Source: Nitrospira sp. CR1.1
GTDB taxonomy: Bacteria > Nitrospirota > Nitrospiria > Nitrospirales > Nitrospiraceae
Assembly: GCA_014055465.1 (NCBI GenBank)
Contig: WIAF01000007.1
Span: forward strand, 1 to 64,000
Length of the DNA stretch: 64,000 bases
Direction of reading: 5' to 3'
Shown: in pieces, positions 1 to 21,986 of the stretch
How the letters are laid out: every line of letters begins with the position of its first letter
Position numbering within the stretch: position 1 is the first letter of the stretch
Program-made: the position numbers and the translations under genes
Notes under the pieces: model-generated
What the model was told of the DNA's origin: nothing
Database searches by the model: none
The model's input: only the letters and a program-made list of their open reading frames with translations

Positions 1-423
1 TTGCGCTACAAGAAGCCACGCGCGGACCTGTATCGAACTCTCAAGCTCGAGGGTATCGAGGAATCATCGGTGAATCTCTGTGTGACGTGCAGTCGGCAAC
101 GAGGCGGTCCTCACGTCCTCGGCCGTTCGACGGTGCGGGATACGGATCTGTATAGTACCTGTTGCGCCATTCAGAACCTGTGGTTGGCGGCGCGGGTCGA
201 AGGGATCGGGGTCGGCTGGGTGAGCATCTTGAGTCATACCGCATTAAAGCAGGTGCTCGACATTCCGAGGTCGGTTAAGGTGCTGGCCTACCTCTGTCTC
301 GGCTACGTATCAGAGTTTGCGACAAAGCCAGATCTTGAAACTGCGGGCTGGCGCGCCAGACTTCCCGTGCAGGAACTGGTGCACTATGAGACATGGGGAA
401 ATAGAGTGCGAGGGAAGGAGTGA
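1..423 (+). CDS. bluB: 5,6-dimethylbenzimidazole synthase BluB (C-terminal part, 5' truncated)
   Basis: This is the C-terminal 140 residues of BluB, the flavin-dependent nitroreductase-fold enzyme that cleaves FMNH2 to make 5,6-dimethylbenzimidazole, the lower ligand of cobalamin. The stretch NLCVTC, then GPHVLGR, DLYSTCCAIQNLWLAARVEGIGVGW and AYLCLGYV, follows the family pattern closely. BluB is normally about 220 residues, so the N-terminus lies left of the window, and the TTG at position 1 is an internal Leu codon. The stop overlaps the start region of the adenosyltransferase gene, making bluB part of the cobamide operon. Its presence implies the organism makes its own lower ligand. Confidence 0.93.
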   Translation: MRYKKPRADLYRTLKLEGIEESSVNLCVTCSRQRGGPHVLGRSTVRDTDLYSTCCAIQNLWLAARVEGIGVGWVSILSHTALKQVLDIPRSVKVLAYLCLGYVSEFATKPDLETAGWRARLPVQELVHYETWGNRVRGKE

Positions 424-431
424 AGGCGGGG

Positions 432-1569: not shown

Positions 1570-1583
1570 GATAGGGAGAGACC

Positions 1584-2636: not shown

Positions 2637-2646
2637 AATTGCCGCC

Positions 2647-3402
2647 ATGACGAGACCGTTTGTGTTCGCCTGGCATTTCCTGACGGCGATCCCGATCAGC
2701 CGACATGACCATGCGCCGACGGGTCATGAGTTGGCGGCATCGATGGCCTGGTATTCCACTGTCGGCCTCCTGATCGGCGGTCTGACGGTGTTGGCCGACG
2801 TTGGCTTGCGTTCGTGGCTGGCAGCGGAGGTCAGCAATGCGTTATTGATCGTCCTGGTCGTGCTGCTGACGCGAGGGTTGCATCAGGATGGCCTGGCGGA
2901 CACAGTGGATGGAATAGCCGGCGGCCGAACCGTTGAGGACCGTCTGCGGATCATGCGCGATCCGCGAGTCGGGGCGTTCGGCGCGGCGGCCCTGTTTCTT
3001 TCTTTATTGCTGCGGTATGCCGGGTTGCTCGCGCTGCCTGCCGCGCTGCGGCTGCCGGTGTTGCTGTGCATGCCGGCACTGGGTCGCTGGGCGATGGTCA
3101 GTCTGGCGTGGGCCTCTCCTTCAGCCCGACGCGACGGCGGACTGGCGGCATCGTTTCTCACCCATTTATCCTGGCCGCCTGTCTTGCTCTCAAGCCTCGT
3201 GTTGGCCGTCGCCTTGACGATAGCATTGGGCGGAAGTGTTGCGGTTGCGACGATGGGCATGGGGATTCTGTTGCTGGCCCTGATTAGGCAACGGTGTCTC
3301 ACGTTGCTGGGAGGCGTGACGGGGGATGTTCTCGGGGCCACGAACGAAGTGATCGAGATCCTCTTCCTCTTGTTGATTCCGGCGTTGGGGATGGCCCGAT
3401 GA
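2647..3402 (+). CDS. cobS: Adenosylcobinamide-GDP ribazoletransferase (cobalamin synthase)
   Basis: CobS is the inner-membrane enzyme that joins adenosyl-GDP-cobinamide to alpha-ribazole (phosphate). The protein begins FAWHFLTAIPI, carries the metal/substrate motif RGLHQDGLADTVDGI and the DRLRIMRDPRVGAFG segment, and has several hydrophobic spans, all as in the family. The ATG at 2647 gives 251 residues, about the usual length. A GTG at 2629 that overlaps the cobT stop is an alternative. The 3' end overlaps cbiB by ATGA, so the two membrane enzymes are probably made together. Confidence 0.94.
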   Translation: MTRPFVFAWHFLTAIPISRHDHAPTGHELAASMAWYSTVGLLIGGLTVLADVGLRSWLAAEVSNALLIVLVVLLTRGLHQDGLADTVDGIAGGRTVEDRLRIMRDPRVGAFGAAALFLSLLLRYAGLLALPAALRLPVLLCMPALGRWAMVSLAWASPSARRDGGLAASFLTHLSWPPVLLSSLVLAVALTIALGGSVAVATMGMGILLLALIRQRCLTLLGGVTGDVLGATNEVIEILFLLLIPALGMAR

Positions 3403-4355
3403 CCGGGGTGGAATTAGCGCTCGCTGCGGTGCTTGATGCCGCGGCAGGGGATCCCCGCTGGTTGCCCCATCCGGTGAGGGGGATGGGAGCGGTCATCGCC
3501 TGGGTTGATCATCATGTCCGCGCCGTCTGCCGGAGCGAGCAGGCCCTTCAGATTGCGGGGAGCTGTTTGGCGCTGGGCCTACCTGCCGCAGTGTACGCCG
3601 CTGCAACGTGGGTGATTGCGCAGGTGATGGAGGTCGCTCCTCTGCTTGGGCAGGTGGTCGGCATCGGATTGGCGTATACGACGCTGGCCGGGCGCGATCT
3701 GTTTGACCACGTTCACGCGGTGCTCCGCGAGTTGACTGCAGGTAATCTGTCTGGCGCCCGTGAAGCCGTGGCGATGATTGTCGGCCGTGACAGTGCGACC
3801 TTGACAGAGCCTGAAATTGCCCGAGCCGCGGTGGAAACCATCGCCGAAAGCACCTCCGACGGAATCATCGCGCCATTGGTGTATCTGTCCCTGGGCGGGG
3901 CACCGCTTGCGCTGGCGTATAAGGCGGTCAACACACTCGATTCCATGATCGGTCATCGCGATGAACGCTATGAACATTTCGGCTGGGCCTCAGCCAGACT
4001 CGATGATGTGATGAACTGGGTACCGGCGCGATTGGCCGGCGGGTTCATCGCGCTGGCTGCAGGCCTTTCGACCGGCCAGTGGCATCGTATCCACGAAAGT
4101 TGGTACATGCTCCATCGAGACGGCGACAAACATCCCAGTCCGAACAGCGGAAGGCCGGAAGCCGCCATGGCCGGCGCTTTGGGCGTGCGACTTGGTGGAA
4201 GAAATTATTATGATGGCGTGCCTCACGAGGCTCCGCTCATCGGTGAGGGGGCCGCAGAGATAAGTCCGGAGCATATCCGCCAAGCGTCTCGCATCATGGT
4301 TGTCACCTATGGGCTGGGTCTGTTCTTCGCCCTGCTCTCCCTATGGGTATCATGA
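3399..4355 (+). CDS. cbiB: Adenosylcobinamide-phosphate synthase (CbiB/CobD family)
   Basis: CbiB is an integral membrane enzyme that amidates adenosylcobyric acid with aminopropanol (phosphate), attaching the arm that later carries the nucleotide loop. Family markers are LDAAAGDPRWLPHPVRGMG at the start, VGRDSATLTEPEIARAAVE, ESTSDGIIAPL and YKAVNTLDSMIGHRDERYEHFGWASARLDD. The start is the ATG at 3399 that overlaps the cobS stop, giving 318 residues. The gene ends in another overlap with the decarboxylase gene that supplies its amine substrate, a common pairing. Confidence 0.95.
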   Translation: MTGVELALAAVLDAAAGDPRWLPHPVRGMGAVIAWVDHHVRAVCRSEQALQIAGSCLALGLPAAVYAAATWVIAQVMEVAPLLGQVVGIGLAYTTLAGRDLFDHVHAVLRELTAGNLSGAREAVAMIVGRDSATLTEPEIARAAVETIAESTSDGIIAPLVYLSLGGAPLALAYKAVNTLDSMIGHRDERYEHFGWASARLDDVMNWVPARLAGGFIALAAGLSTGQWHRIHESWYMLHRDGDKHPSPNSGRPEAAMAGALGVRLGGRNYYDGVPHEAPLIGEGAAEISPEHIRQASRIMVVTYGLGLFFALLSLWVS

Positions 4356-5458
4356 AGCGCCCGGCTCACGGCGGGGATGTCTACGCGGCGGCTCGTGAAT
4401 CGGGGCGAGATGTCCGGCATCTGCTGGATTTCAGCGCCAGCATCAATCCCCTGGGACCATCCCCTGCGGCCTGGCGGGCGATCAGTCAAACGGGTGAACT
4501 GCTGCGCCATTACCCGGATTCGACCTGTTGGGATCTGCGGGAGGCGCTGGCGAGGTTTTGGGACCGTACGCCGGAAGAGTTTCTGGTCGGTAATGGGTCG
4601 ACCGAATTGATCCACCTGCTTCCCGAGGCCTTACAGATTAGACATCTTCTGGTCATTGGCCCGACCTTCTCCGAATATTCGACCGCCATGGCCAGGGTCG
4701 GGGGGCAGATCAGCAGCGTCATGGCCGCGCGTGCAGACGGATACCGGCCTCCGCTTGAACAGGTCTTGACCGCTCTGGATGCGTCTTCGAACAAAGGAAA
4801 CAGCCTGTCTCCTGATGCGGTGATGCTGTGTAATCCCAACAGCCCGACCGGGCAAGTGTGCGATGCCGCCATGGTCAGGAAGCTGGCTCGTCGGGCGGCT
4901 CGCCTTGGACAATGGTGCCTCGTAGATGAAACCTTTGCCGAATATTGCGAGCAGGCCTCGATACTGCCGGAAGGCCTTCCGGCGCGGACCGTCGTGTTGC
5001 GGAGTTTTACTAAGTTTTACGGATTGCCAGGCCTTCGTGTGGGCTATGCGGTCGGGAATCCCAAGGTCATCAAGCAATTGGGCGCTCATCAGCCTCCCTG
5101 GTCGGTGAATATGCTCGCTCAGCGAGCTGCCCGGATCGCATTACATGACTGGCGGCACAACTGGCGGAGTCTCCGGTTCATGGAGCAAGAGCGGGCGCGG
5201 TTCGCGAAAGGACTGGAGCGATTGCCCGGCTGTTCGATTTTTCCCTCCGCGGCCAACTTCCTGCTCCTGGAATTGCCGGCAAGATTGAAGTCTGCGCGCG
5301 TGGTATCGGCGTTTCGGCGGCAAGGGCTCTTGGTTCGAGATTGCTCGCAGGTGCCGGGACTGAATGATCGTTCGATACGGGTCGCCGTTCGGTCGCGCCT
5401 TGACAATGATCGACTGCTCCAATCCCTGTCGGACATCATCGGGAACATCCGAGCATGA
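4352..5458 (+). CDS. cobD: Threonine-phosphate decarboxylase (PLP-dependent, CobD/CobC)
   Basis: This fold-type I PLP enzyme decarboxylates L-threonine phosphate to aminopropanol phosphate for the CbiB reaction. It has HGGDVYAAA and LLDFSASINPLGPS at the N-terminus, GNGSTELIHLL, CNPNSPTGQV, and the Lys-containing SFTKFYGLPGLRVGYAVG that forms the internal aldimine. It resembles histidinol-phosphate aminotransferase, but operon context and the N-terminal HGG motif favour the cobamide role. I chose the ATG at 4352, which overlaps the cbiB stop; an ATG at 4343 adds three residues. The stop overlaps the cbiZ start. Confidence 0.9.
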   Translation: MKRPAHGGDVYAAARESGRDVRHLLDFSASINPLGPSPAAWRAISQTGELLRHYPDSTCWDLREALARFWDRTPEEFLVGNGSTELIHLLPEALQIRHLLVIGPTFSEYSTAMARVGGQISSVMAARADGYRPPLEQVLTALDASSNKGNSLSPDAVMLCNPNSPTGQVCDAAMVRKLARRAARLGQWCLVDETFAEYCEQASILPEGLPARTVVLRSFTKFYGLPGLRVGYAVGNPKVIKQLGAHQPPWSVNMLAQRAARIALHDWRHNWRSLRFMEQERARFAKGLERLPGCSIFPSAANFLLLELPARLKSARVVSAFRRQGLLVRDCSQVPGLNDRSIRVAVRSRLDNDRLLQSLSDIIGNIRA

Positions 5459-6186
5459 CCGGGGTTCGTGCAGACCGATTCTCTGTTCGGCATCGGGTTG
5501 TTTCCGACACGCTCATTGTGGATCTTGGCGCACGCATGCGCGTGTTGTCCTCTGCTCCGCGAGGAGGAGGGCTTCGAACGGCCAGATACATCCTGAATCA
5601 TCAGGTTCCTTCGAATCCGCCAGGATCAGGCGCAGGAGGAAACTGGGAGCATCCATCCCATTCTCTGAGGCGGCTTGCGGAAATGCTCGGAGTAGACACC
5701 GACTGTGTCGGTCTCATGACGGCAGTCCCCATGACGCAGCTGGTGGCTCATCGAGAGGAGGGCGATGGAATCTGGGTGGAGGGTTTTGCCACCGTGGGGG
5801 TCACCAATGCCGTGCGGGCGGGGGAGCCTGTGCGGCGTGTACAAGACAAACCGGGCGGCGCGGCGGCAGGAACGATTAATCTCATTCTGGTCACGAATGG
5901 GTGTCTGGCAGTCTCTGCCATGGTCGGCGCGGTGCAGGTGGCGACGGAGAGCAAAACCGCCGTGTTGCGGGATCATGCCATTCCCAGCTGTACCGGTCTC
6001 GCCGGTGCGACCGGTACGGGGACGGATGCCGTGGTTGTCGCTTCCGCCATACGAGGAAAGGGTCCCTGGCATCCGTATGCGGGAACGCATACGGAGATCG
6101 GATCCATGATCGGCCGGGTCGTGGCTGAATGTCTCCTCCAGGGCTTGACCTTGGCGGCACAGTGGGTCGATAGGGCTCGTATCTGA
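5455..6186 (+). CDS. cbiZ: Adenosylcobinamide amidohydrolase CbiZ
   Basis: CbiZ hydrolyses the amide of adenosylcobinamide (or of pseudo-cobamides) back to adenosylcobyric acid, so scavenged cobamides can be rebuilt with another lower ligand. The sequence has SSAPRGGGL, GLMTAVPM, ATVGVTNAVRAG, GTINLILVTN, TESKTAVLRD and the Gly/Thr-rich ATGTGTDAVVVAS segment typical of CbiZ. The ATG overlaps the cobD stop by four bases. Finding it among de novo assembly genes suggests salvage and remodelling run alongside synthesis. Length (243 residues) is normal. Confidence 0.93.
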   Translation: MTGVRADRFSVRHRVVSDTLIVDLGARMRVLSSAPRGGGLRTARYILNHQVPSNPPGSGAGGNWEHPSHSLRRLAEMLGVDTDCVGLMTAVPMTQLVAHREEGDGIWVEGFATVGVTNAVRAGEPVRRVQDKPGGAAAGTINLILVTNGCLAVSAMVGAVQVATESKTAVLRDHAIPSCTGLAGATGTGTDAVVVASAIRGKGPWHPYAGTHTEIGSMIGRVVAECLLQGLTLAAQWVDRARI

Positions 6187-6200
6187 ACGTCCTCATTCCT

Positions 6201-7757
6201 ATGAACCATCCTTCCCGCGCCAAAGCCATTGCGATTCTTGGAACCGGCTCCGATGTCGGGAAAAGCATGGTCACGGCCGGCCTCTGCCGGCTCCTGCATC
6301 GCGCCGGAATGCGCGTGGCCCCCTTCAAGGCACAGAACATGTCCCTTAACTCATTCGTCACACCGGAGGGCGGGGAGATCGGGCGTGCGCAGGCGTTGCA
6401 AGCCGAGGCTTGCGGGATTGCTCCCCATGTCGACATGAATCCGATCTTGCTCAAACCGGAATCCAACGCCCGATCGCAAGTGGTGGTGCAGGGGAGAGTC
6501 TTCGCGACATTGGATGCCCGGGCGTACTTCACACGCGGACGCGACTCGGAATTACTGCGCGCGGTGCGGGAGAGCTACGAACGGCTCGCTGGACAGTATG
6601 AGGTGATCGTGATCGAGGGGGCCGGCAGCGCCGCTGAAGTGAATTTGCGCGATCGCGATCTCGTGAACTGGCCCATGGTGGAACTGGCTGATGCTCACGT
6701 GGTGCTGGTGGGGGATATCGACCGCGGAGGCGTCTTCGCTCAAATCATCGGGACCCTCGACCTGATTGCGCCGGAGGAACGTGCCCGCGTTTGCGGGATC
6801 GTGATCAACAAGTTTCGCGGGGATAGGGCGCTCTTCGACGACGGCGTCCGTTTTCTCACCGAACGGACGGGGATACCCGTCCTTGGAGTCCTGCCGTACC
6901 TTCGCGATCTCACATTGGATCAGGAAGATAGCCTTGATGCTGGCGCCGGTGGACGAGTTTCCTTCGCAGCTGATCGTGCCAACATTGCCGTGCTGCTCGT
7001 GCCGCACATGAGCAACTTCACCGATTTCAACGCGCTTGCTGAAGAAACCGATGTGGCGTTGCGGTATGTCGCAAGCCCCGGGGAGGCAGCCGGAGCTGAC
7101 GTGATGGTCATTCCCGGCTCGAAGACGACGCTGTCGGATCTGGGGTACCTCCGGGAGAAGGGCTTTGAGCGCCTGTTGCATGATCATGTGCAACGTGGAG
7201 GGGAAGTGGTTGGCATCTGCGGCGGGTATCAGATGCTGGGCCAATGGATCGCCGATCCCGACGGAGTGGAGACCGGCGGCCAGGGAACCGGTTTGGGATT
7301 GTTGCCGGTCACTACCGTCCTGGCGCGGGACAAGATTACGGAGCAGGTCGAGGCGCAGGCGCTGCATATTGACGGATCAACCACATTGCCTGTCCGGGGG
7401 TATCTCATTCACATGGGCAGAACTGATCGCGGCGGGCTTCAGCCTTGCTTCCAGCTTCTGGAAAAGCGAGGCGGGCTGAAGGATCACGGTAGAGAAATTC
7501 CTCGCGCAGAGGAATTTCAGGATGGCGCGGTGCGCCATGATGGGTTGGTGTGGGGGACCTATGTCCATGGCCTCTTCGATCAGCCGTCTTTTCGCCGGGC
7601 CTGGTTGAACCGGCTGCGCAGCCGCAAGGGGTTATCGGCGGTTCCCCTTGAAGACTCCCAACGCGTGAATGAGACACGGCTCAACGCGATGGACCGCTGG
7701 GCGGATCACGTCGGCCGGCACCTTGATCTCGCTCCTCTTCTGGCATGGCTCCGGTAG
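6201..7757 (+). CDS. cobQ: Cobyric acid synthase (glutamine-hydrolysing)
   Basis: CobQ amidates four side-chain carboxylates of adenosylcobyrinic acid a,c-diamide using glutamine and ATP. The N-terminal half is a dethiobiotin-synthetase-like domain with the P-loop GTGSDVGKSMV and KAQNMSLNSFVT. The C-terminal half is a class I amidotransferase-like domain with the nucleophile in VGICGGYQMLG and the His in WGTYVHGLFD. The 518-residue length is slightly above the common 485-510. It is the last gene of the operon, 14 bases after cbiZ. Confidence 0.95.
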   Translation: MNHPSRAKAIAILGTGSDVGKSMVTAGLCRLLHRAGMRVAPFKAQNMSLNSFVTPEGGEIGRAQALQAEACGIAPHVDMNPILLKPESNARSQVVVQGRVFATLDARAYFTRGRDSELLRAVRESYERLAGQYEVIVIEGAGSAAEVNLRDRDLVNWPMVELADAHVVLVGDIDRGGVFAQIIGTLDLIAPEERARVCGIVINKFRGDRALFDDGVRFLTERTGIPVLGVLPYLRDLTLDQEDSLDAGAGGRVSFAADRANIAVLLVPHMSNFTDFNALAEETDVALRYVASPGEAAGADVMVIPGSKTTLSDLGYLREKGFERLLHDHVQRGGEVVGICGGYQMLGQWIADPDGVETGGQGTGLGLLPVTTVLARDKITEQVEAQALHIDGSTTLPVRGYLIHMGRTDRGGLQPCFQLLEKRGGLKDHGREIPRAEEFQDGAVRHDGLVWGTYVHGLFDQPSFRRAWLNRLRSRKGLSAVPLEDSQRVNETRLNAMDRWADHVGRHLDLAPLLAWLR

Positions 7758-9334: not shown

Positions 9335-9880
9335 ATGAGCGACGTTCCACTCATCCAGTCTCAGCCTTCCGCTGCCTCTCCGGCCCAGGGATCCTCCGGT
9401 TCATCGAGGCCTTCCGCCGCACCGACCGAAGGCGCGCTGCGCATGTGCGTGTTGACGCTGGGAGGAGAGCTCTTCGCCATCAATCTACACCATGTCAGTG
9501 AAGTGTTCGAGGTGGAATCCGTGACGGCCGTGCCCAGCATGCCCAGCTATCTGACGGGAGTGACCAACCTCCGGGGCACGGTGATTACGCTGGTTGATTT
9601 GCGCGGGAGCCTCGGCTTGTCGGTGACTACCAGGCCGCTGCCGATTGCGGTGGTGATACGTCACGGCGCCAGACAGGTAGGTGTGCTGGTCGATCACGTT
9701 CCGGAAATTCATACGGTTTCCCGCGAGCATCTGCTGCCGGCCATGCAAGCGGGTCCGGCTGGCGCGCGACCCTGTGTGTCGGCAGTCCTCCGTCTGGACC
9801 ACCGTCTGGGAGGCGTCCTGGAAGTACCGCAGGTCTTTGCGCAGGTGGACGGGGGGAGTGCCGCATGGCCGGTTGTGTAA
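9335..9880 (+). CDS. CheW-like coupling protein (PilI-like)
   Basis: CheW links receptors to the CheA kinase. After a low-complexity Ser/Pro/Ala leader of about 33 residues, the SH3-like CheW domain starts at MCVLTLGGELFAINLHHVSEVFE and contains the receptor/kinase contact region YLTGVTNLRGTVITLVDLR. The 181-residue length is slightly longer than usual because of the leader. It sits three bases after the receiver gene and before the receptor, the typical order of a pil-chp type operon. Of the three CheW-like proteins here it is closest to the standard pattern. Confidence 0.88.
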   Translation: MSDVPLIQSQPSAASPAQGSSGSSRPSAAPTEGALRMCVLTLGGELFAINLHHVSEVFEVESVTAVPSMPSYLTGVTNLRGTVITLVDLRGSLGLSVTTRPLPIAVVIRHGARQVGVLVDHVPEIHTVSREHLLPAMQAGPAGARPCVSAVLRLDHRLGGVLEVPQVFAQVDGGSAAWPVV

Positions 9881-9975: not shown

Positions 9976-11850
9976 ATGATCGGGCAAGGCGTCACGAATC
10001 GATTCCAGGACATGAACACACGATCGAAGCTGCTGCTCAGTTTTGGCCTGGTGAGTTTCATCATCTTGATCATGGCCAGCGTCGGCGTATTCACGCTGCG
10101 CCAGCTCAGTGCCCAGTCGCAAACCGTGTACGCGGGCTACACAGTGCCGCTCGCCGATTTCGCTCAGATGGGAACGGCGCTCACCAAGCATCACCAGATC
10201 TTGCTGGACGTCGCGTCTGCCACCAAACAAAGCGACTTCGCCCAGGAGATCACGAAACTCCCCCCGTTGAAAGCCGAGATCGAGAAAGCCGTGACTAACT
10301 ATAAGAGCACCAACTTGCGGGTGTCCCGATCAGGCCGCGACGAAATAAAAGACCTCACGCTGTTTGAGCCGGCGCTCAAAAAGTATTTCCAGGAAGCGGA
10401 TGGCGCGCTCAGCGCCATGGCGGATAGCTTCGATCGCAATACCCTGTCCGCGGCACAGGCCGAGCAAATGCGGGCCCTCGGTGTCCTGGCCTTGACCGTC
10501 AACCTGACGCCTCCATTCGAAAACGCGGTGAAGCGCCACAACGAGCAGATCATCAGCATTGAAGCGGTGGCAAAGGATCTGAACGACGACGCCCAATCCC
10601 TGGCAGCCAGCGGTACCTTTATTCTCGTGGCCGGTGGTCTGGTGGCCGTGGCGCTGGGATTGTTCGTCGGATATCTCCTGGCGACCTTCCTGTCGCGAAA
10701 CATTTCGCACATTGCCAGTGTCGCCACACAGGCCGCCGGCGGCAACCTGCAGGCGCGCGCGAAAATCGGATCACACGATGAGCTCGGGCAGATGGCGACG
10801 GCGTTTAACTCCATGCTCGATCGTATTACGGCTCTCGTATCGACGGAGGAAGAGCGAGACCTGATGCAGAAGCGCCTCATGCAATTTCTCGTGCTCGTGT
10901 CGGAAGTGGGTAAAGGAGACCTGACTCGTCGAGGCGAGGTGACGGCCGACATGTTCGGAAACCTGGCCGACGGTTTTAACCTCATGATCGCGCGATTCGG
11001 ACAATTGTTGAAACAGGTGCGCGAAGCCGCCGACCGCGTGAACAAGTCGGCCGGTACGCTCCGGGATTCTGCCGGACAGATGTCCGGAACGGCCCGCACG
11101 CAGGCGGAAGAATCCGTGCGGACGCTGGGCGCGGTCGAACAGCTGGCCGCCGGTATGCGCCAGGTCGCCACCACGGCCGGAGCCTCGTCGGATTCCGCCA
11201 AGCAAGTGTTGTCCGCGACTGAACGCGGAAACGTCGCGGTGCAGGAAACGGTGCGCGATATGCAAAGCATTCGTTCCGCGGTGCAACGCATGTCCAAGCA
11301 GGTGAAGGGCCTCGGCGACCGTTCGTTGGAAATTTCCCAGATCGTGTCGACCATTCGTGATATCGCTAACCAGACGAACCTCCTCGCGCTCAACGCCGCC
11401 ATTGAGGCGGCGGGCGCCGGTGAGGCCGGTGCGCGATTCGCCGTCGTCGCCGACCAGGTCAGAAAGTTGGCGGAAAGTTCCACGCAAGCCACGCGTGAAA
11501 TTGCGGACCTCGTCAAAGTGATTCAAACGGAAACGCAGGATGCGGTTGTCGCGATGGAGCATGAAACGCAGGCCGTGGAAGCCGGATCTGCGTCGGCCCT
11601 CCGCACCGGTGACGTGTTCGCCGAAATTTCAGATATTGCGAAACGGTCTTCCGAACTGGCCCAGAATATCGCCAGCGCGGCCTCGGACCAGACCTCATCG
11701 ACTGAAAAAGTCGGTCGCGCGATTAAGGAGTTCACGGGCGGCGCCGTGGCGACGCAGAAACAAACCGATTCCACGCGACTCACGATCGAGGATATGGCCA
11801 AGCTGGCCGAAGGCCTCAACTCCTCAGTCGCGCAGTTCAAGCTGGTGTAG
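9976..11850 (+). CDS. Methyl-accepting chemotaxis protein (PilJ-like)
   Basis: This 624-residue receptor has TM1 at about 19-41, a helical periplasmic sensor of roughly 170 residues, TM2 at about 214-236, one HAMP domain, a second HAMP-like segment ([27 protein letters not shown]) and a long cytoplasmic coiled coil. The signalling tip has [19 protein letters not shown] and [16 protein letters not shown], the conserved hairpin that binds CheA and CheW. The double HAMP and the tip resemble PilJ. No C-terminal CheR-binding pentapeptide is present; the protein ends QFKLV. An AAGGAGG site precedes the ATG. It lies directly before cheA. Confidence 0.92.
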
Positions 11851-11904: not shown

Positions 11905-14900
11905 ATGAGCGCTGATTTTGATCGCGACCAGCTACTGGACATTTTCGTGGCCGAAGCCGGTGACGATATGGAACGGTTCTGGAAGGCATTACACCTGGAA
12001 GGGAAGGCGCGTCCCGAACCGGCCGACGTGGCCGACTTCCACGCCATCGGCCATAAATTAAAAGGCGCGGCGCTGTTGTACGGTTTTCCGGGTCTGGGCC
12101 AACTTGGCGCGTTACTCGAGGAGACGCTTGAACATGTGCAGGAGATATCTCCGGAGCAATGGCCGGTCGCCTTTGATGTGATCCGGGACATCGTCGCATC
12201 CTTCCGCCATCAGGTGGCGCGGATTGGGCGCGGGGAAGGCGAAGATGCCTCTCTCGTGGACGGGTTCGTTCAACGGTGCGCGCAATTCCTGCCGGCAGCG
12301 TCTCCAGAGACCGGGTCAACACAGTCCCCGAACACATCGACGGAGCCGCCTGACGAATACCTTCTGCCCGTGATGGATGAAGAAGTCCTTTCGTACTTTG
12401 CTCCTGAAGCCGAAGACTATCTCAATACGATTCACACGCTCCTCCAGCGTTTGGACATCGACGTGTCGGATGTGGAGACCATTCATCAACTGTATCGTGT
12501 CGCCCATACACTCAAGGGTTCAGCTTATACGGTCGGATTTCAGGTCGTGGGTGATGTGGCCTTGCCCATCGAAAACTGTCTGATAGCGGTTCGCGAAGGC
12601 ACGGCCGTCATCACGCCTCAGTGGATCGCCACGATCCGGCATGCGGTGGACGTGATGCGTTCGCTGATGGCTCGAGACGCGCAGCAGTTGGCTCGGCTGC
12701 GGCAGGACGTGCCCTGCATTATGACCATGCTTCGTGAACTGGAGCATGGCATCTCCCAAGCCGAAGATTCCGCTACGGCGTCCGTGCCGGACACACGCGC
12801 CTCCGTTCGGGAAGTGGCTCCTCCTGCGGTCGTGGCGGCTGAGCCGATTGCCCAGGCGGCCGAGCACAATCACTCCCTCCAATTGTCGGAAGCCTATTTG
12901 ATTCCTCAGTTGGATGCCGAAGTCATTTCCTATTTCGCTCCCGAGGCACAGGAGTACCTGGACAATCTTGAGACTGACTTGTTGCGAGTCGATAAGGATG
13001 CGGCCAACCCGGATATCATCCATCAATTGTTTCGCACAGCTCATACGTTAAAGGGGTCGGCCTATACCGTCGGGTTCCAATCCATCGGCGATCTGACGCA
13101 CCATATCGAAGATTTCATGGGCGCGGTGCGTGAAGGCCGTGTGACGTTTCTCCTCGGTCATACGGATGTGCTCTTGCGCGCAATAGACGTCATTCGCGCT
13201 CTGATGCGGCGCGACCCGTCAGTATTCAGCCGGACGAGACAGCGGTTCGCAGCGTCGCTCCAGGAATTGAAAGGGTTGGGAGAAGCCTCGCCGACAGGGG
13301 GCATGGACTCTGCCGTTCCATCCGTGCCTGAAGCGGTCGTTCCCTCCGATTTGAATGAAGCCGAGACTGCGGAGTCGATCAATGCCGGCGAAGGAAAATC
13401 CGGAGAAGAGCGGGAGGTGATCCGGGTCAGCCGTGATCGCTTGGAACGTCTGCTCAACCTGGTCGGCGAATTGGTCATCGATCGCGGGCGTCTCGAACAG
13501 CGGTTACGCACGCTGGAACAGCTGGCCACCCAGGTGTTGGCCAATAAAAATCGCCTGACTGATGCGGTGCGGACATTTGAAGACAAGCATACCTTCTCCT
13601 TTCAGCCCTCTCCCCTGTCCCAGGGGGAATCAGCGCCTCAGGCGTTTCCCGGTGTCAGCGACTTCGGCAGTCTGGAATTCGATAAGTACGATGACTTCAA
13701 TATTCTGGCCCGCCGGATCAGCGAGGTGACCGCGGACATCAGCGAATCTATGTCGCAGTTGTCCGGATCGATCCGCCGCGCCCAGGACGATATGGGATCG
13801 TTGCAACAGTTGACGCTCGGCATGCGCGATGAAATTGCCCGCGCGCGCATGGTGCCGATCGGCACTCCGTTTACCCGGTTCCGTCGTGCGGCTCGCGAAA
13901 TGGCCAGGGCCACAGGGAAAGAGGTGAATCTGGTCACCTCCGGAGAACATACAGAAATCGATACCGGCGTGGTCGAGCGTTTGGTGGACCCGCTGGTGCA
14001 TTTGGTCAGGAATGCCGTCTATCACGGCATCGAGCCGGCGTCGGTCCGCCGGGTTCAAGGCAAGCCGGAGGCAGGTACCGTGTACCTGCACGCTGCGCAT
14101 CGGGGCAACTCGGTGCTGATCGAAGTCGAAGACGACGGCGCGGGGCTCGACATCGCAAAGATCAAAGCGAAGGCGGTCAAGCTGGGACTTGTCAGGCAGG
14201 ATGTCGCTGAAACCCTTCCCGAGAGCGAAGTCATCAAGTTCATCTTCCTGCCCGGATTCTCTACCGCTGATGCCATCGGTGAGCAAGCGGGACGCGGAGT
14301 CGGCATGGATGTGGTCAAGCGCGTCATTGAAACGATGAATGGCCATATCGAGGTGGAATCGGTGCGCGGGCAGGGCACCAAGTTTACGATGCATTTGCCC
14401 CTCACCCTGTTGATCGCAACCGCTTTGCTTGTGCGGGTCGGAAAAGAACGGTATGCGATCCCTCTCCCGAGTGTGCGCGAAGTCACGATGTCGACCGCGT
14501 CGACGATTCAGCATATGGGCGATCGTCGCGTTGTGCAGATCGGCGACGAAGCCATCGAAATCTATCCGCTCGGAAGCCTCATTCGACGCGAGGCTGGGAT
14601 GACGGATGACGCCTCCCCCGTGGTGATCGTGCGAACGTCAACCGGCGCACTTGGCTGCGCGGTGGACGAATTGCTGGGCCGGCAGGAAATTGTCATTAAG
14701 TCGCTGGGCGGACTGAAGCCGTATGAGCGGTCCGTGTTCGGTGGGGCCACGATCGATCCCGAGGGACGTGTGGTGTTGGTGCTGGATGTCAGTCGCCTGA
14801 CCACGCGCGAGTATTATGAGAGCGTGTCGATTGCGCAGGCTCCCGCCGTGCCGTCGAACGAGGACGCGACAGGGAACCGTGATGCGAGACAGGATTCCCG

Positions 14901-15288
14901 CTCGCCGTTACCCCTCTTGTTGATCGACGACTCCCTCAGCATCAGAAAGTTCGTGGGCCGCATGCTCGAAGCTGCGGGGTATATCGTGGAAACAGCGACG
15001 GACGGCGAAGAGGGGTGTCGCAAGGCGATGGTGCAAGCCTACCAACTGATTATCACCGATCTCGAAATGCCCAAGTTGAACGGCTACGAAGTCATTCAAG
15101 CCCTTCGGGCAAGACCCCAGACTCATGCGACCCCGATCCTCGTGATGACGACGCGGGCGGGCGAGAAGCATCGTCAAATGGCCGTCAGTGTCGGCGCATC
15201 CGGCTACATTGCCAAACCGGTCGAGGAACGGGCGTTGATTCAGGAAGTGCGCAAATGGACCGCTCCCGGAGCGCGGGCTGAAATATAA
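11905..15288 (+). CDS. cheA: ChpA-like hybrid CheA histidine kinase with three Hpt domains and a receiver
   Basis: The 1127-residue kinase begins with three Hpt domains whose phospho-accepting histidines are H50 (GHKLKGAA), H201 and H380 (both AHTLKGSAYTVGF). Hpt2 and Hpt3 are near copies, pointing to a tandem duplication. Then follow the dimerisation segment (SRDRLERLLNLVGELVIDRG), the ATP-binding domain with HLVRNAVYHGIE, DDGAGLD and GRGVGMDVVK, a CheW-like domain and a C-terminal receiver with acceptor Asp in LIITDLEMPKLNG and Lys in YIAKPV. The layout is like ChpA of type IV pilus systems but shorter. It should phosphorylate its own receiver and the two stand-alone receivers nearby. Confidence 0.94.
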   Translation: MSADFDRDQLLDIFVAEAGDDMERFWKALHLEGKARPEPADVADFHAIGHKLKGAALLYGFPGLGQLGALLEETLEHVQEISPEQWPVAFDVIRDIVASFRHQVARIGRGEGEDASLVDGFVQRCAQFLPAASPETGSTQSPNTSTEPPDEYLLPVMDEEVLSYFAPEAEDYLNTIHTLLQRLDIDVSDVETIHQLYRVAHTLKGSAYTVGFQVVGDVALPIENCLIAVREGTAVITPQWIATIRHAVDVMRSLMARDAQQLARLRQDVPCIMTMLRELEHGISQAEDSATASVPDTRASVREVAPPAVVAAEPIAQAAEHNHSLQLSEAYLIPQLDAEVISYFAPEAQEYLDNLETDLLRVDKDAANPDIIHQLFRTAHTLKGSAYTVGFQSIGDLTHHIEDFMGAVREGRVTFLLGHTDVLLRAIDVIRALMRRDPSVFSRTRQRFAASLQELKGLGEASPTGGMDSAVPSVPEAVVPSDLNEAETAESINAGEGKSGEEREVIRVSRDRLERLLNLVGELVIDRGRLEQRLRTLEQLATQVLANKNRLTDAVRTFEDKHTFSFQPSPLSQGESAPQAFPGVSDFGSLEFDKYDDFNILARRISEVTADISESMSQLSGSIRRAQDDMGSLQQLTLGMRDEIARARMVPIGTPFTRFRRAAREMARATGKEVNLVTSGEHTEIDTGVVERLVDPLVHLVRNAVYHGIEPASVRRVQGKPEAGTVYLHAAHRGNSVLIEVEDDGAGLDIAKIKAKAVKLGLVRQDVAETLPESEVIKFIFLPGFSTADAIGEQAGRGVGMDVVKRVIETMNGHIEVESVRGQGTKFTMHLPLTLLIATALLVRVGKERYAIPLPSVREVTMSTASTIQHMGDRRVVQIGDEAIEIYPLGSLIRREAGMTDDASPVVIVRTSTGALGCAVDELLGRQEIVIKSLGGLKPYERSVFGGATIDPEGRVVLVLDVSRLTTREYYESVSIAQAPAVPSNEDATGNRDARQDSRSPLPLLLIDDSLSIRKFVGRMLEAAGYIVETATDGEEGCRKAMVQAYQLIITDLEMPKLNGYEVIQALRARPQTHATPILVMTTRAGEKHRQMAVSVGASGYIAKPVEERALIQEVRKWTAPGARAEI

Positions 15289-15335: not shown

Positions 15336-15908
15336 ATGGGTCTTCGCGGACAACGGGCAGTCACCATATCGGGCGGGCACGCTGTCAGGTTTCTTGTCAC
15401 GCTGATCGGTCGCTCCTCCGTTGCACTTCCCGCGCAGTGGGTTCGCGGCATCGTAACGCCTGCCTCGGCCGGCCCTGACGGGCTCATCACATGGGCGGGC
15501 GTGCCCTACAACCGAACTGATTTGGCCGCTCGACTCAAGATCGTCTCCCAAGGTCTTTCCCTCGATACCAGGTTCATTTTGTATGGCAATGAAGAACAGT
15601 CGCGGTCATTCGCGGTGGATAAAGTGGTCGGGCTGCTGGACGTCGAGCGGGAGCTGATCCATCCGTTACCCCCTCAGTTCCGGGGCCAGGAACGAGAGCG
15701 ATGGCTGGGATTTTTTGTCGACACGTCGTCCGTCGCGCTGATTGCCAATCCCTTTTGGGCGCTGGAGCTTCCCCTCAGGCCGCAGGCGTTGGAGATCTTT
15801 GCGATCCGCTTTTTGGAGCGCAAGCCGGGAGAAAGGGAGTCACGACTTCATCTGCCGGCGGCTGCCACGGATGAGGCGGTGTCGATGTCAACGGGCCAAG
15901 TGAGCTAA
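15336..15908 (+). CDS. Divergent CheW-like domain protein
   Basis: This 190-residue protein has the strand pattern of a CheW domain: RFLVTLIGRSSVALPAQWVRGIV at the start, a middle segment with WAGVPYNRTDLAARL in the place of the usual NLRG...VVDLR region, and RSFAVDKVVGLLDVERELIHPLPP like the second CheW lobe. The kinase/receptor contact motif is poorly kept, so it may be a specialised adaptor. It starts 47 bases after cheA and precedes another CheW-like gene by 15 bases. The assignment rests on fold-level pattern and context. Confidence 0.65.
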   Translation: MGLRGQRAVTISGGHAVRFLVTLIGRSSVALPAQWVRGIVTPASAGPDGLITWAGVPYNRTDLAARLKIVSQGLSLDTRFILYGNEEQSRSFAVDKVVGLLDVERELIHPLPPQFRGQERERWLGFFVDTSSVALIANPFWALELPLRPQALEIFAIRFLERKPGERESRLHLPAAATDEAVSMSTGQVS

Positions 15909-15923
15909 TTCTCAAAGGTCATC

Positions 15924-16400
15924 ATGCTACGAGCTCAGTTACGCAGGCAGTCACACGAGACGGGACGAGGCACGACCCACGCGCGGGTGGAAAATCTGGT
16001 GGTGTTTTCAGTCGCCGGGCAACGGTTGGCTGCCAGGACTGAAGAGATCGGCGGGGTGTTGCCCTGGCCTGGCGCCACGCCGGTTCCCAGTGATACGCCA
16101 TTTGTGACGTCGTTGGTCCGCTATGAGGAGTCGTGTCTTCCGGTGTTTGATCTTGCGGCCAAATTCGATCGTACGGTGCGCGAAGAGGAATCGCTGTGTC
16201 TGATCGTCAAACATGTTGATGGTCCTCTCGCAATCTGCATCGACTCACAGGTGCCATCACTGCACGTGGTGCCGCGCTCAGAGATACGGTATCAAAGCGG
16301 CCTCGATCCAGACATGGCCGGATCGTGCGTCGCAGGCGACGAACAGCTGCCTCTTATCAACCTGGCAACCTTAGGGGTCGCATCAAGGCGTTCAGCCTGA
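15924..16400 (+). CDS. Divergent CheW-like domain protein
   Basis: After a basic leader of about 25 residues, the 158-residue protein shows a CheW-like pattern: NLVVFSVAGQRLAARTEEIGGVLPW, then FVTSLVRYEESCLPVFDLAAKF in the usual contact region, and LCLIVKHVDGPLAICIDSQVPSLHVV. It lies between the other divergent CheW-like gene and the receiver/coiled-coil gene. Together with the protein at 9335 it gives the cluster three separate CheW-type adaptors plus the one inside CheA. The exact partner is unknown. Confidence 0.68.
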   Translation: MLRAQLRRQSHETGRGTTHARVENLVVFSVAGQRLAARTEEIGGVLPWPGATPVPSDTPFVTSLVRYEESCLPVFDLAAKFDRTVREEESLCLIVKHVDGPLAICIDSQVPSLHVVPRSEIRYQSGLDPDMAGSCVAGDEQLPLINLATLGVASRRSA

Positions 16401-16428: not shown

Positions 16429-17913
16429 ATGCCAAAGATTTTGATTGCCGATGACAGCATTGCGGTTCGCAAGGTGGCTGAACGACTTTTGACTGAGGCC
16501 GGAATGGGTGTCACGCTCGCGGCGAACGGATCGGAAGCTCTGGCGATGTTGGCAAAGGACCGTCCGGATCTGATCGTCTCCGACGTCATCATGCCCGACA
16601 AGAGCGGCTACGAAGTCTGCGCATTCATCCGCGGGCAGGCCAATCTGGCCGATCTTCCCGTGCTGCTGATCAGCGGTATTGTCAACGATGAAGTATCCAG
16701 ACAGGCCGAAACCTGCAAGGCCGATGGCGTGCTGAAAAAGCCGTTTCAGGGATCCTCCCTGAAGGATCGCGTGCTGGATTTGCTCACCAAGCGTCCGCAC
16801 AAACCTGCGCCGGTTTCGGAACCGATTCATATCCCGATGGCAGAACCGCCGGTCATAGCGGAAGTCGCGCCTGCGCCGGTCTCGCCCATGCAGGAAGAGC
16901 TCTCCCCCGGTCCATCGGCACAGCCGGAGTGCAAGCAACCGGTTGAACCCGTTGCGATGGCTATGGACCTGCCATCGGCGGCGTCGGCGGAGCAGGTGAG
17001 GAATCAGGCAGGTCCCGCTGAGGTCATTCCCTCCAATCGGGCCAATGAGCCGAGTCCTCTGGTGCAGGCGGACAATCAATACCAGTCGATTCTGGCCGAA
17101 CGGGATGCCAGGATCACCGAACTTGAGGAGCAGCTGGGATCTGAACGCAGGCACAGCCAGGGCGAGCGTCAACAGAATCAGTTGATGATGTCGGAACAAC
17201 GCGAGCAGATCGCTGAATTATCTTCGCGAACGCAGGCGCTTGAAAGCCACCTTTCAGAAGAGCGCGCCCACCGGGATTCGATGACCCGACAGTTGGAAGA
17301 CCTGTCGAGGCAGGCGCACCGGCTGAACGAGGTCGAAGCCGCCTTGCTCGAAGAGCGGCACCGTGCCGAGCAGCTGGCGCAGCAGGTCTCCGAGGGCGCT
17401 CGTCTGGGGGCGCGTATTGTGGAATTGGAGGCCCATCTCGAAGCTGAGCGGGAGGCGGCCAACCAACTGGTCAGCCAGATTACCAACCTCGAGCATGTCG
17501 AAGGCCGCATGAAGGAACTCGAGCGAGTCCTGGCGCGCGAGAGGGAGGAGGCAATGGCTCTGCGGAACGAACGCGCGCAATTGGAAAAAAGTGCGGCCAT
17601 GGTGCCGGCACTGGAAGAGGCGGGCGAGAAGGTTCGCGCTCAGGTTGCCGAACTCGATGCGACTCTCACGGCTGAGCGTGACGCCGCGGCTGCCCTTCTG
17701 GCGCAATACAAGCAGATGGAAGAGAAAGCTGAACGTGGGCAGGAATTAGAGCAGGAGCTGAGCGCCGAACGGGACCACTCCATGCAGCTGACCAAACGGG
17801 TGGCTGATGCCGAGTTGATGGCCGAACAGTCGACGCGACGATTCGAAGACCTGGCGAGGAAGCTGGGTGAAATCGCGGGACTCGCCTCCCAACTTGGGAA
17901 CGCAAAACGCTAA
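16429..17913 (+). CDS. Response regulator receiver fused to a long coiled coil
   Basis: Residues 1-120 form a receiver with D8-D9, acceptor D52 (LIVSDVIMPDKSG), S82 and K104 (LKKPF). A Pro/Glu-rich linker spans about 121-200. From about 210 to 490 the sequence is an almost unbroken Glu/Arg/Leu coiled coil with repeated LEEQL, LEEERHRAEQL and LEAEREAA heptads. There is no DNA-binding, enzymatic or other known output domain. The coil may dimerise, form a scaffold or place the signalling complex in the cell; that is inference. A PilG-like role for the receiver is plausible from its position behind cheA. Confidence 0.82.
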   Translation: MPKILIADDSIAVRKVAERLLTEAGMGVTLAANGSEALAMLAKDRPDLIVSDVIMPDKSGYEVCAFIRGQANLADLPVLLISGIVNDEVSRQAETCKADGVLKKPFQGSSLKDRVLDLLTKRPHKPAPVSEPIHIPMAEPPVIAEVAPAPVSPMQEELSPGPSAQPECKQPVEPVAMAMDLPSAASAEQVRNQAGPAEVIPSNRANEPSPLVQADNQYQSILAERDARITELEEQLGSERRHSQGERQQNQLMMSEQREQIAELSSRTQALESHLSEERAHRDSMTRQLEDLSRQAHRLNEVEAALLEERHRAEQLAQQVSEGARLGARIVELEAHLEAEREAANQLVSQITNLEHVEGRMKELERVLAREREEAMALRNERAQLEKSAAMVPALEEAGEKVRAQVAELDATLTAERDAAAALLAQYKQMEEKAERGQELEQELSAERDHSMQLTKRVADAELMAEQSTRRFEDLARKLGEIAGLASQLGNAKR

Positions 17914-17931: not shown

Positions 17932-18918
17932 ATGTCGGTCGAGTGCATGTGCCATGGGCAGGATGCCGCTGTGTCGACGGAATCAGAGCAAACCCAGGAC
18001 GATTTTCAGAAAGAACTCATCGAGCTGTTCGGGCAGGAGGCGCAGGAGTGGCTCGTCCAGATCCACGCGGCCCTGGTTGAACTCGAGAGCCTGCCGGATT
18101 CGGACCGGCACTCCCAATTGATCGATGCGGTCGTGCGAGGCATTACCAGTCTTGGCGGCTCCGCGGCCACGGTGAGCCTGCCCGATGTCGAACGCGCCAC
18201 GTTTGCACTCCTTCCGTTCATCGAGACGATCAAAGACCGGACCACGGCGACGAAACAGGACTTCAACACGATCCGGGAACTTTTTCGTATCGTCATCGAG
18301 TCTGTCAGGGTGGATACTGGAATCACGCTCGACCTCTTGCCAACGCAGGAAGCGGCGCCGGCGCCGGAAACGGTTCTTGATTTTCTCACCCTGTTGAATG
18401 CACTGCACCAGCTGCAGGATGAACTGGTGGCGCAGGTGGGCATGGCCCGCAGTCTCATTCCGGTAGTTATGCAACGGTTGGAGCATGAGGCGAGGCAAGG
18501 CGCCGGCCAGATCCAGGCCGCGAAGTTTCAGGAACTTCTGGTGACGATTCAGAGCACGGACGCTCAATATCTGGGCTCGCTGCGACAGGACTTGCCCGGC
18601 GTTGCGCTGCATCTGAGCCGGCTCCGAGCCGGCGGACTTGCGATCCTTGCCTCCGACGCCGGATTCGACGCCCCGATGCAGATGGTTGCACGCCTCCAGG
18701 ATATCGCCAAACAGACCCATGCCACGCCGCTCGTGACGTTCCTGACCGGCCTTCAGAATTTTCTCACCCTGGTCGTCCAGCGCCGCATTGACGTTGCGGC
18801 TCATCGGCTCCAATCGGTCGAGACGCGCATCCTGGCGGTTGCCAGCATGGTCGAAGAGTGGATTGCGGACGGACAAAAAGAGTTGGAGATGATGAGCCGG
18901 CTCGCCCCATCGGCCTGA
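17932..18918 (+). CDS. Pseudo-Hpt domain protein of the chemosensory cluster
   Basis: Residues about 24-105 match the Hpt pattern of the neighbouring CheA: the helix FGQEAQEWLVQIHAALVELE corresponds to the FAPEAEDYL helix, and GITSLGGSAATVSLPDVE corresponds to AHTLKGSAYTVGF. The phospho-accepting His is replaced by T72 and the conserved Lys by G75, so it cannot act as a normal phosphotransfer domain. The remaining 220 residues are helical and match no family I recognise. The ATG at 17932 is the best start, although its ribosome site is weak. The same kind of domain recurs in the HD-GYP protein downstream. I infer a docking or decoy role. Confidence 0.7.
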   Translation: MSVECMCHGQDAAVSTESEQTQDDFQKELIELFGQEAQEWLVQIHAALVELESLPDSDRHSQLIDAVVRGITSLGGSAATVSLPDVERATFALLPFIETIKDRTTATKQDFNTIRELFRIVIESVRVDTGITLDLLPTQEAAPAPETVLDFLTLLNALHQLQDELVAQVGMARSLIPVVMQRLEHEARQGAGQIQAAKFQELLVTIQSTDAQYLGSLRQDLPGVALHLSRLRAGGLAILASDAGFDAPMQMVARLQDIAKQTHATPLVTFLTGLQNFLTLVVQRRIDVAAHRLQSVETRILAVASMVEEWIADGQKELEMMSRLAPSA

Positions 18919-19111
18919 GGCCGTCCACCACGCCGACCGGCAGGCCGGTGCAGACCTTCACAGACCCCCGGTCGAATCATGGATGGCGCTCGCCTCTGCG
19001 CGACGTCGCAATGACCATGAATTCAGAGGAGTATGACCGGAGCGATCGCTGATCCCGACGTCGGGATACGTCCACAGACTCGCCGGACAATGGGGGCTGA
19101 AGAGAACGGGA

Positions 19112-21199
19112 ATGGAACAGACTCACTACCGGCAGGCAGAGGAGATACTCGCGAAGCTGGCTGCCTCCGTCCAACGACAGGAACCCCTGGACCTCGTCGA
19201 GCTGACGCATCTCGCAGAGGCCATCGTCGAATCGTTACAAGGAAGCGAGCAGTTGGTCGTTGAAGCGCTGTCCAGTCCTAGCGGACCTCCGCTCGTGACG
19301 AATCTCATCAATGTCGGAATCCTGGCTACGAAAGTGGGGATCGGCCTCGGATACTACGGAGTCGAATTGCACCGGCTCGCCTTAGCCGGGTTGCTGCACG
19401 ACATCGGAATTTTTGCTGTACCGCAGCAGCTCCTCACCAAAACCGGCCGCCTGACAGCCGAAGAACGCACACTGGTCGAACAACATCCTCGTCTCGGTTC
19501 CGAGGTCATCCGCCGTGCGGGGCCGGATTATGCCTGGCTGGCGGAAGTGGTGCTGCAAGCGCATGAGCGAGGAAAAGGGCAGGGATATCCCCATCGCTTG
19601 AAAGGCCGAGAGATCAACGAGCTGGCCCAGATTATCGGCTTGGTGGATATCTTCGATGCGCTGGTCAGCCCGCGTCCCTATCGTCGGCGGCTGCTGCCTC
19701 ACGAAGCCGTGCGCGAGTTGCTCACCACGGAACGTACCGCGTTCCCGCGGGAAATCATGAAAGCGTTGGTCGAACAATTATCGGTGTATCCGCTTGGCAC
19801 GAGGGTGCGGCTCAGTAGCGGAGAAGAAGGGGTGGTGGTCCGTATTACCGCGCGCTATCCATCGCGCCCGGTATTGCGTATCACGGGCGCAGAGGACGCA
19901 TCGGCTTCTGACCCCCCGCGCATGCTTGATTTGAGCCTGCTGCCCCATGTGTCGGTGGTTGAGACCGTTGAGCCGCCGGCTTTGGAACGTGTCACCTTCG
20001 ATTCTGTTGAACCTGCCACGACAGCGCCCTCTGCGCCGACAAACGTCTCGGACCAATTTGCGGCCTTGCTGGAAAGCCTTGATGCCATTGCCGGAGTCAT
20101 CCAGGCTGCCGTGGACCAGCCTGCCGCAGCACCGGGGCCCGTCCCGGTACCGGCGGAAACAGCGGCGGCTGAGCCAATCATTCCTGTACGCCGGGAAATT
20201 TTGGGCCTGTTCGTCTTGGAAGCCCGGGAATGGCTTCATCAGATTCAAACGGCGTTGGAGCGGCTGGACACCACCAGTGAGCAGGCTCGTCGCGCGCAAT
20301 TGGCTACGATTTTATGGCAGAGCGTCAACAATCTTGCGCGTTCCGCGTCCACGGTCGGATTGACGGCTGTGGAGGAGATGGCGACCAGGTTATTTCCGCT
20401 CCTGCAGGCGGCAGCCAGACACGAACGGGCTGTGGCGGCGCATCACGTGGCGTCGCTTCGAGAGGGCTTGCTGGAGATTGGCAAGACGGTACAGGCGCTT
20501 CGGCCGGTCGAACAGCATCCGGAGACAGTCGACGATTCCGCTGAGCGCGTGCCGATGGCCGTTGAGGAACCCGGGCAACCGGAATCTCAGGAGTCCCAGG
20601 TTTCTATGGGGATTGTCCCTGAGACGGCGTTGCCGACGACTGGTTCTCCACGTCCCGTGCCCGCGTCTTCCATACTCGAAGCCTTGCGGCAATTGCATGT
20701 GGCGCGCGGCCGTTCGCTGGAACCGGTGCGCGATGTATTGGAGACGGTCATTCAGCGAGCCGAACGCGAGGCGGCGGAGGGCGTTGCTGTAGTGGACGCG
20801 CGGACCATCGGCCGTCTGCTGCAGGAACTGGATGACTTGGATGAACGGTTTCTCGGCCATATGCAGGCCCGGGTTCCGTCGGTCATCGCGACGCTTGGCC
20901 GTATCGCACGCGCGAGCGAAGAACGCGTGTTGCCTCCCCAGGCGTTGGAGCCCATTTTTGATGAAATCGATGTGCTGTTCGAGGCATCTGAACGGGTGTC
21001 CGCATCGAATATCAGCGTCTTCCTCCAAGGCCTCCGGACATTTCTTCGCGTAACCGCACAACACAAGCCCGCCGCCATTCGCGAGCGGTTGGCTGCCCTG
21101 GAAGAGCGGTTGGCGACGCTCATTCCGCTGGCCCAGCAATGGGTGGATGTCGGGCGGGTGGAGCGGGCCGCCATTTTTGATATTCTGCCCATGGCCTAG
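19112..21199 (+). CDS. HD-GYP domain protein with C-terminal pseudo-Hpt region
   Basis: Residues about 60-225 form an HD-GYP domain, the c-di-GMP phosphodiesterase type: LLHDIGIFAVP with H96-D97, EQHPRLGSEVI with H125, AHERGKGQGYP at 150-160, and VDIFDALVSPRPYRRR. The usual HHE is AHE here (A150), and the Asp of the DGxGYP motif is K155, so activity is uncertain. A short barrel-like region follows (LGTRVRLSSGEEGVVVRI). From about 358 the sequence repeats the Hpt-like pattern (VLEAREWLHQIQTALERLD) with N406 where the phospho-His should be. It closes the chemosensory cluster and is its likeliest output. Confidence 0.8.
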   Translation: MEQTHYRQAEEILAKLAASVQRQEPLDLVELTHLAEAIVESLQGSEQLVVEALSSPSGPPLVTNLINVGILATKVGIGLGYYGVELHRLALAGLLHDIGIFAVPQQLLTKTGRLTAEERTLVEQHPRLGSEVIRRAGPDYAWLAEVVLQAHERGKGQGYPHRLKGREINELAQIIGLVDIFDALVSPRPYRRRLLPHEAVRELLTTERTAFPREIMKALVEQLSVYPLGTRVRLSSGEEGVVVRITARYPSRPVLRITGAEDASASDPPRMLDLSLLPHVSVVETVEPPALERVTFDSVEPATTAPSAPTNVSDQFAALLESLDAIAGVIQAAVDQPAAAPGPVPVPAETAAAEPIIPVRREILGLFVLEAREWLHQIQTALERLDTTSEQARRAQLATILWQSVNNLARSASTVGLTAVEEMATRLFPLLQAAARHERAVAAHHVASLREGLLEIGKTVQALRPVEQHPETVDDSAERVPMAVEEPGQPESQESQVSMGIVPETALPTTGSPRPVPASSILEALRQLHVARGRSLEPVRDVLETVIQRAEREAAEGVAVVDARTIGRLLQELDDLDERFLGHMQARVPSVIATLGRIARASEERVLPPQALEPIFDEIDVLFEASERVSASNISVFLQGLRTFLRVTAQHKPAAIRERLAALEERLATLIPLAQQWVDVGRVERAAIFDILPMA

Positions 21200-21461: not shown

Positions 21462-21986
21462 ATGCCAAAACTCGTCTCAGCGAAACAGCAGGAAAGTCAC
21501 GACGCGCGCGCGACGGCCTATATCAAAGCGTACATGTTATTTCCGGCCGGTATTCTCGGTCTGATCTCTATGCTTGGCGGAGTCGGTGGATTAGGCTATC
21601 AGCTGCTTGGAACCGACACCTATTCGTGGGCAACTTTTTTGCAAAGCTCCGGATTGTTGCTGTTGGGAGGGGTGCTGGGGTGGCTGCAGACCACCTATCA
21701 TCGGTGGATTCTGGCCAACCGTCCCGAAGTGTTTGCCGACCGCATGCGGCAGCCTGCGCTCACGAAGAGCGGGAAACTGAAACGGGAGAGCGGGAAAAGT
21801 CAGAAATCGTCCAGTGGGTCCCCCTGGGCTCCGGTTGCGTACATGGCTGGTCTAGCCTTGCTCTTGTTCGGATCGACCATTGCCGTGGTGTACGGCGCGG
21901 TGCATCCGATCGCGGCCTATTTCCTGCCTTGGGCCGGATTCTTTTGGGCCAAGTTGTTCTTCTGGAAGACGCTGCTGAAATCCTGA
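21462..21986 (+). CDS. Small membrane protein of unknown function
   Basis: I do not recognise this family. The 174-residue protein has four likely membrane spans, roughly at 24-46, 58-78, 122-145 and 148-168, separated by a basic loop (LTKSGKLKRESGKSQKSSSG). The ATG at 21462 has no strong Shine-Dalgarno sequence. It lies 262 bases after the HD-GYP gene and converges on lpxD, with only 17 bases between the two stops. It could belong with either neighbour or stand alone. Confidence 0.6.
   Translation: MPKLVSAKQQESHDARATAYIKAYMLFPAGILGLISMLGGVGGLGYQLLGTDTYSWATFLQSSGLLLLGGVLGWLQTTYHRWILANRPEVFADRMRQPALTKSGKLKRESGKSQKSSSGSPWAPVAYMAGLALLLFGSTIAVVYGAVHPIAAYFLPWAGFFWAKLFFWKTLLKS

Follow-up and report, generated by a model that had tools for sequence, protein, structure and literature searches.

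Two neighboring genes of a chemosensory cluster from a Nitrospiraceae genome encode proteins, here named P1 and P2, that are related to the Hpt domains of the cluster's own CheA but carry no histidine at the phosphoacceptor site. We therefore asked what an Hpt fold that cannot take up a phosphate may do in such a pathway. The window that we analyzed is a stretch of 64,000 nucleotides; the closest named records of its genome are Nitrospira MAGs, and relatives are also found in Ca. Nitrospira defluvii and N. moscoviensis.

Organization of the cluster and fold of P1 and P2

All genes of the cluster lie on the forward strand. It opens with a CheW (9335..9880; PF01584, E 2.3e-29), a neighbor conserved across loci, followed by an MCP chemoreceptor with 4HB, HAMP, and MCPsignal domains (9976..11850, assigned by Pfam and synteny) and by a CheA of 1127 aa (11905..15288), in which Pfam recognizes three Hpt domains (His50, His201, and His380) in addition to dimerization, ATPase, CheW, and receiver domains. 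Next come two CheW-like proteins, the first at 15336..15908 (PF01584, E 2.2e-5, and synteny) and the second at 15924..16400 (PF01584, E 1.2e-12), and a response regulator (16429..17913; PF00072, E 3.2e-22) made of a receiver with a complete active site (D8, D9, D52, S82, and K104) and of a long charged, coiled-coil-like region. P1 (17932..18918, 328 aa) and P2 (19112..21199, 695 aa) then follow as intact open reading frames. This gene order is common to the loci of many Nitrospiraceae genera, and the segment that runs from CheA through both CheW proteins and the receiver to P1 is also present, in the same order, in one genome of a different family within the order.

An earlier note on this DNA had P1 and P2 close the cluster, which is true only in a loose sense, as the conserved order runs on to a small putative membrane protein (21462..21986, +) that we assign by synteny and for which Pfam and NCBIfam gave no significant family match. 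The gene for this protein lies close downstream of P1/P2 in most loci, those devoid of P2 included. In the window, P1 and P2 are separated by a gap of only 193 bases (18919-19111); in many relatives, the same interval holds what we judge by eye to be a gene for an ExeA/GspA-like AAA ATPase (for example, 10541-11482 in locus L037, 10594-11421 in L033, and 4994-5797 in L060).

P1 is a stand-alone protein predicted to fold into a tandem of four-helix bundles, at residues 17-129 and 196-322 (mean pLDDT, 85.9). We delimited its pseudo-Hpt domain (18013..18318, +, residues about 28-129) by a match to the Pfam Hpt family and by comparison of the model with the CheA structure 1tqg. The match of P1 itself (PF01627, residues 28-93, E 4.6e-4) scores 20.8 bits, below the gathering score of 24.6; all of the 20 diverse P1 relatives that we aligned match the same family, with a best E of 9.6e-14. 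Conversely, a profile of the P1 family recovered the CheA P1 domains 2ld6 and 1tqg at ∼1e-6 and matched the cluster CheAs of related genomes with E of 1e-6 to 1e-8. The search of Pfam and NCBIfam for a P1 family model other than Hpt yielded nothing useful, and Foldseek with the P1 model gave no match at E < 0.001. The pseudo-Hpt of P2 (20189..20497, +, residues 360-462) was located by BLASTP to P1 and by superposition on 1tqg, which gave a Z of 15.3 and an rmsd of 2.4 over 104 residues for positions 358-465, in a model that is moderate as a whole (pLDDT, 67.6).

For P1, residues 24-130 of the model superpose on 1tqg with a Z of 13.6 and an rmsd of 2.3 (104 of 105 residues, 20% identity). The C-terminal bundle (196-322) also aligns with CheA P1 structures (Z of 13.1 with 1i5n), but values of Z around 13 are easily reached by four-helix bundles and may reflect their common arrangement alone. 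A profile of the C-terminal bundle found no credible match among the PDB sequences and no Hpt sequence signal. Since sequence supports the first bundle only, we describe the second as Hpt-like in shape and no more, the model being at most a weak hint of a second Hpt domain. The four-helix bundles of the two pseudo-Hpts match the CheA P1 fold, and the homology to the CheA Hpt domains put forward in the earlier note is borne out; we consider that P1 and P2 really possess an Hpt fold without its histidine.

Loss of the phosphoacceptor and history of the family

As the earlier note had read, alignment with the CheA Hpt domains places Thr72 of P1 and Asn406 of P2 at the histidine site. The lysine that it reported as missing is indeed lost (Gly75 in P1 and Ala409 in P2), yet its position is directly before the GSA motif and not two residues before. 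Among 169 readable Nitrospiraceae copies (110 P1-type and 59 P2-type), not one has a histidine in the phosphoacceptor column. Threonine occupies it in 92/110 P1-type and 33/59 P2-type copies, the remainder having Ala, Ser, Asn, Gly, or Met, and three more distant copies carry Thr or Ala. The orthologues of the cluster CheA retain the histidine at the three Hpt sites (89/89, 83/85, and 89/89) and the receiver protein next to P1 retains Asp52 in 112/114 copies, so that the loss is specific to P1 and P2. The helix that bore the histidine is among the best-conserved parts of P1, with a conserved face, L-G-G-S-A-A-T, that has Gly at both His+3 and His+4; in P2, these two positions are Ala and Arg/Lys.

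Compared with two congeners, the pseudo-Hpt domains show dN/dS values of 0.058 to 0.090 in P1 and of 0.038 to 0.048 in P2, whereas the whole CheA reaches ∼0.105 against the same two genomes. We reject the idea of decaying pseudogenes, as the frames are intact and dN/dS is low. P1 was found in 128/147 Nitrospiraceae genomes, including all 121 sampled genomes that have the cluster CheA (E < 1e-100), and the cluster CheA was found in none of the 19 genomes that lack P1. Beyond the Nitrospiraceae, full-length relatives were found in a single further genome from the order, and the other matches at the level of the phylum cover only the Hpt segment, inside longer open frames of CheA size. Because a His-less Hpt fold is kept in all relatives under strong purifying selection, it is likely that P1 and P2 have a selected function other than phosphotransfer, as had been suggested from the window.

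The suggestion that the histidine disappeared independently in each protein does not stand up to the comparison of the two families. The two proteins are paralogues: BLASTP aligns nearly the whole of P1 with P2 (27% identity in the aligned part, E 1e-19), through the C-terminal domain that both share, and their pseudo-Hpts form one clade separate from the CheA Hpts, with a modest support of 0.785. Thr is the commonest residue at the site in both; parsimony on the tree assigns it to the root and to the ancestor of P2, and single-copy relatives, also outside the Nitrospiraceae, have Thr or Ala. Given this paralogy and an ancestral Thr in both proteins, the histidine was most likely lost once, before P1 and P2 split. 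With Thr at the root and in the P2 ancestor, and with Ser, Gly, and Asn all seen at the P2 site within the genus of the window, Asn406 is most likely a late change within that genus.

Pairing of the two proteins is lineage specific and not a defining trait: at the loci examined, the HD gene includes a pseudo-Hpt in 68 cases, is HD-only in 38, and is absent from the stretch examined in 14, these figures being counts of loci from sets that overlap in organisms and not of independent species. Several stand-alone copies group with the P2-type clade (at 8710-9744 in L046, at 9759-10808 in L047, and in L048, L050, L052, L065, and L066), and the duplication history is thus more complex than a simple derivation of P2 from P1.

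The HD-GYP-like domain of P2

Ahead of its pseudo-Hpt and of a C-terminal bundle whose homologue is found in P1, P2 has an N-terminal HD-GYP-like domain that an earlier reading of the sequence had overlooked (19322..19732, +, residues 71-207 matched; HD_5, E 6.5e-28, and alignment with 4mcw). The HDIG and GYP motifs are retained. The metal ligands of PmGH (4mcw), which we take to be E185, H189, H221, D222, H250, H276, H277, and D305, are kept at five of the eight positions, with E185, H189, and H276 replaced by P60, N64, and A150, and in the same alignment the Lys of HDIGK is replaced as well (K225 to I100). N64 is invariant and A150 nearly invariant in the aligned copies of the P2 family. Seen across 19112-19900, the loss of the first His, of the HDIGK Lys, and of the first His of HHE is conserved family-wide. 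Since the aligned family keeps the substitutions at positions 64 and 150, the domain is probably not an active standard c-di-GMP phosphodiesterase, a judgment on the HD part that draws mainly on the sequence, as the structure model is moderate. P2 would then join two pseudo-domains, a degenerate HD-GYP-like domain and a pseudo-Hpt. Residues 1-221 of P2 align with Bd1817 (3tmb; Z 12.7, rmsd 3.7 over 174 residues), with the HD and GYP motifs kept. P2 departs from Bd1817 and from the other HD-GYP proteins by its fusion with a pseudo-Hpt and by the absence of two histidines, the first one and the one that opens HHE.

Possible roles of the His-less Hpt proteins

The earlier note knew of no described chemosensory pathway with such proteins, but a precedent exists in the Pil-Chp system of Pseudomonas aeruginosa, where FimL has two Hpt-like domains without a phosphoacceptor, Gln being found at both sites (PMC3019171). 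FimL interacts with the receiver PilG, and both FimL and ChpA are needed for the polar localization of PilG (PMC10519157). Like FimL in outline, P1 and P2 are non-kinase chemosensory proteins devoid of a phosphoacceptor and related to the Hpt domains of their own pathway's CheA, and P1 is predicted to have two bundles, of which the second lacks sequence support. They differ from FimL in having Thr, Ala, Ser, Asn, or Gly instead of Gln at a clear Hpt site, in being encoded next to the CheA gene, and, for P2, in the added HD-GYP-like domain. His-less Hpt domains, or "Xpt," are also already known inside chemosensory CheAs, and a recent survey of CheA proteins regards their function as not yet settled (PMC10782961). 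The Xpt domains of ChpA and of R. sphaeroides CheA3 are likewise Hpt folds without the conserved histidine but lie within the kinase, whereas P1 and P2 stand apart from it as proteins of their own. Plant pseudo-HPts, such as AHP6 with Asn at the His site, are stand-alone as well, but they serve a eukaryotic multistep phosphorelay and come without a chemosensory cluster, a second bundle, or an HD fusion. In the literature that we searched, we found no paper on the Nitrospira cluster with P1 and P2, no relevant one that brings HD-GYP and Hpt together with a chemosensory system, and no stand-alone pair that extends through a family and bears an HD-GYP-like fusion.

Since the CheA Hpts and two receivers are intact and P1 and P2 cannot carry phosphate, an adaptor acting through its Hpt surface is the most economical explanation. 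We thus lean, with moderate confidence, toward P1 and P2 being paralogous, phosphoacceptor-less Hpt adaptors of a Nitrospiraceae pathway that dock receivers and/or CheA, with P2 coupling to c-di-GMP. Their ancestor, a descendant of a CheA-type Hpt domain, would have lost the histidine once and been retained as a noncatalytic adaptor. This adaptor may dock the phosphorylatable receivers (the coiled-coil response regulator and that of CheA) and/or CheA itself, the sequence leaving both as candidate partners, and docking would hold, localize, or buffer the receivers in a FimL-like manner. In some members of the family, a copy would have become fused to an HD-GYP-like protein without conserved catalytic residues, giving P2, which probably links the state of the receivers with c-di-GMP or with a different HD-GYP partner. 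Against this reading, many lineages have no pseudo-Hpt on P2.

The same anatomy, a lost histidine and a receiver-facing helix that is kept, would also suit a competitive inhibitor or titrator, with P1 and P2 occupying the receivers in place of the CheA Hpts and lowering phosphotransfer as AHP6 does. Plant pseudo-HPts provide a described class of this kind, and sequence does not separate an inhibitor from a scaffold; the constant presence of the C-terminal bundle, together with the HD fusion, hints at a role beyond that of a decoy, and we regard pure inhibition as unlikely. A structural module that makes no contact with receivers, and instead binds the CheA kinase core or a pilus or polar protein or forms a P1-P2 complex, would agree with the constant co-occurrence with CheA and with the tandem bundles. 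The Gly-Gly of P1 and the Ala-Arg/Lys of P2 after the His site also alter the usual receiver interface, but the strong conservation of the old His-site helix in P1 speaks the other way; we regard this explanation as unlikely too. The prevalence of Thr at the site, with Ser in some P2 copies, recalls the Thr/Ser "Xpt" domains of ChpA, once proposed to be phosphorylated. We consider an alternative phosphoacceptor very improbable, as many copies have Ala, Met, Asn, or Gly there, the P2 of the window has Asn, the Lys at His+3 is lost, and the His-less Hpt domains of ChpA were not phosphorylated in vitro (PMC10782961). The residues found at the site disfavor Thr as a routine phosphoacceptor.

With P1, the question of the His-less Hpt moves to a separate, small, and strongly conserved protein tied to a single kinase. 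This tie spans the whole family, the Nitrospira nitrite oxidizers included, so that two purified proteins would suffice to address the question. P2, for its part, is a possible link from a chemosensory kinase to c-di-GMP through two pseudo-domains. A further step, which we put forward only tentatively, is that the conserved adaptor family consists solely of nonphosphorylatable domains and that binding alone passes the chemosensory signal to c-di-GMP signaling: receivers would be held by a pseudo-Hpt joined to an HD-GYP domain that has degenerated, in an adaptor that performs neither phosphotransfer nor hydrolysis.

The genome also carries pilT-type genes, a fliG, and two other CheAs, and the output of the cluster could accordingly lie in pili, in flagella, or in c-di-GMP signaling. 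Upstream of CheW, the conserved gene order includes a Tll0287-like protein (PF11845, 8105-8902), which could be a sensor, and the region directly upstream (420-7757) holds cobalamin biosynthesis genes (Cob_adeno_trans, DBI_PRT, CobS, CobD/CbiB, an aminotransferase, CbiZ, and a CbiA/CobB-like gene).
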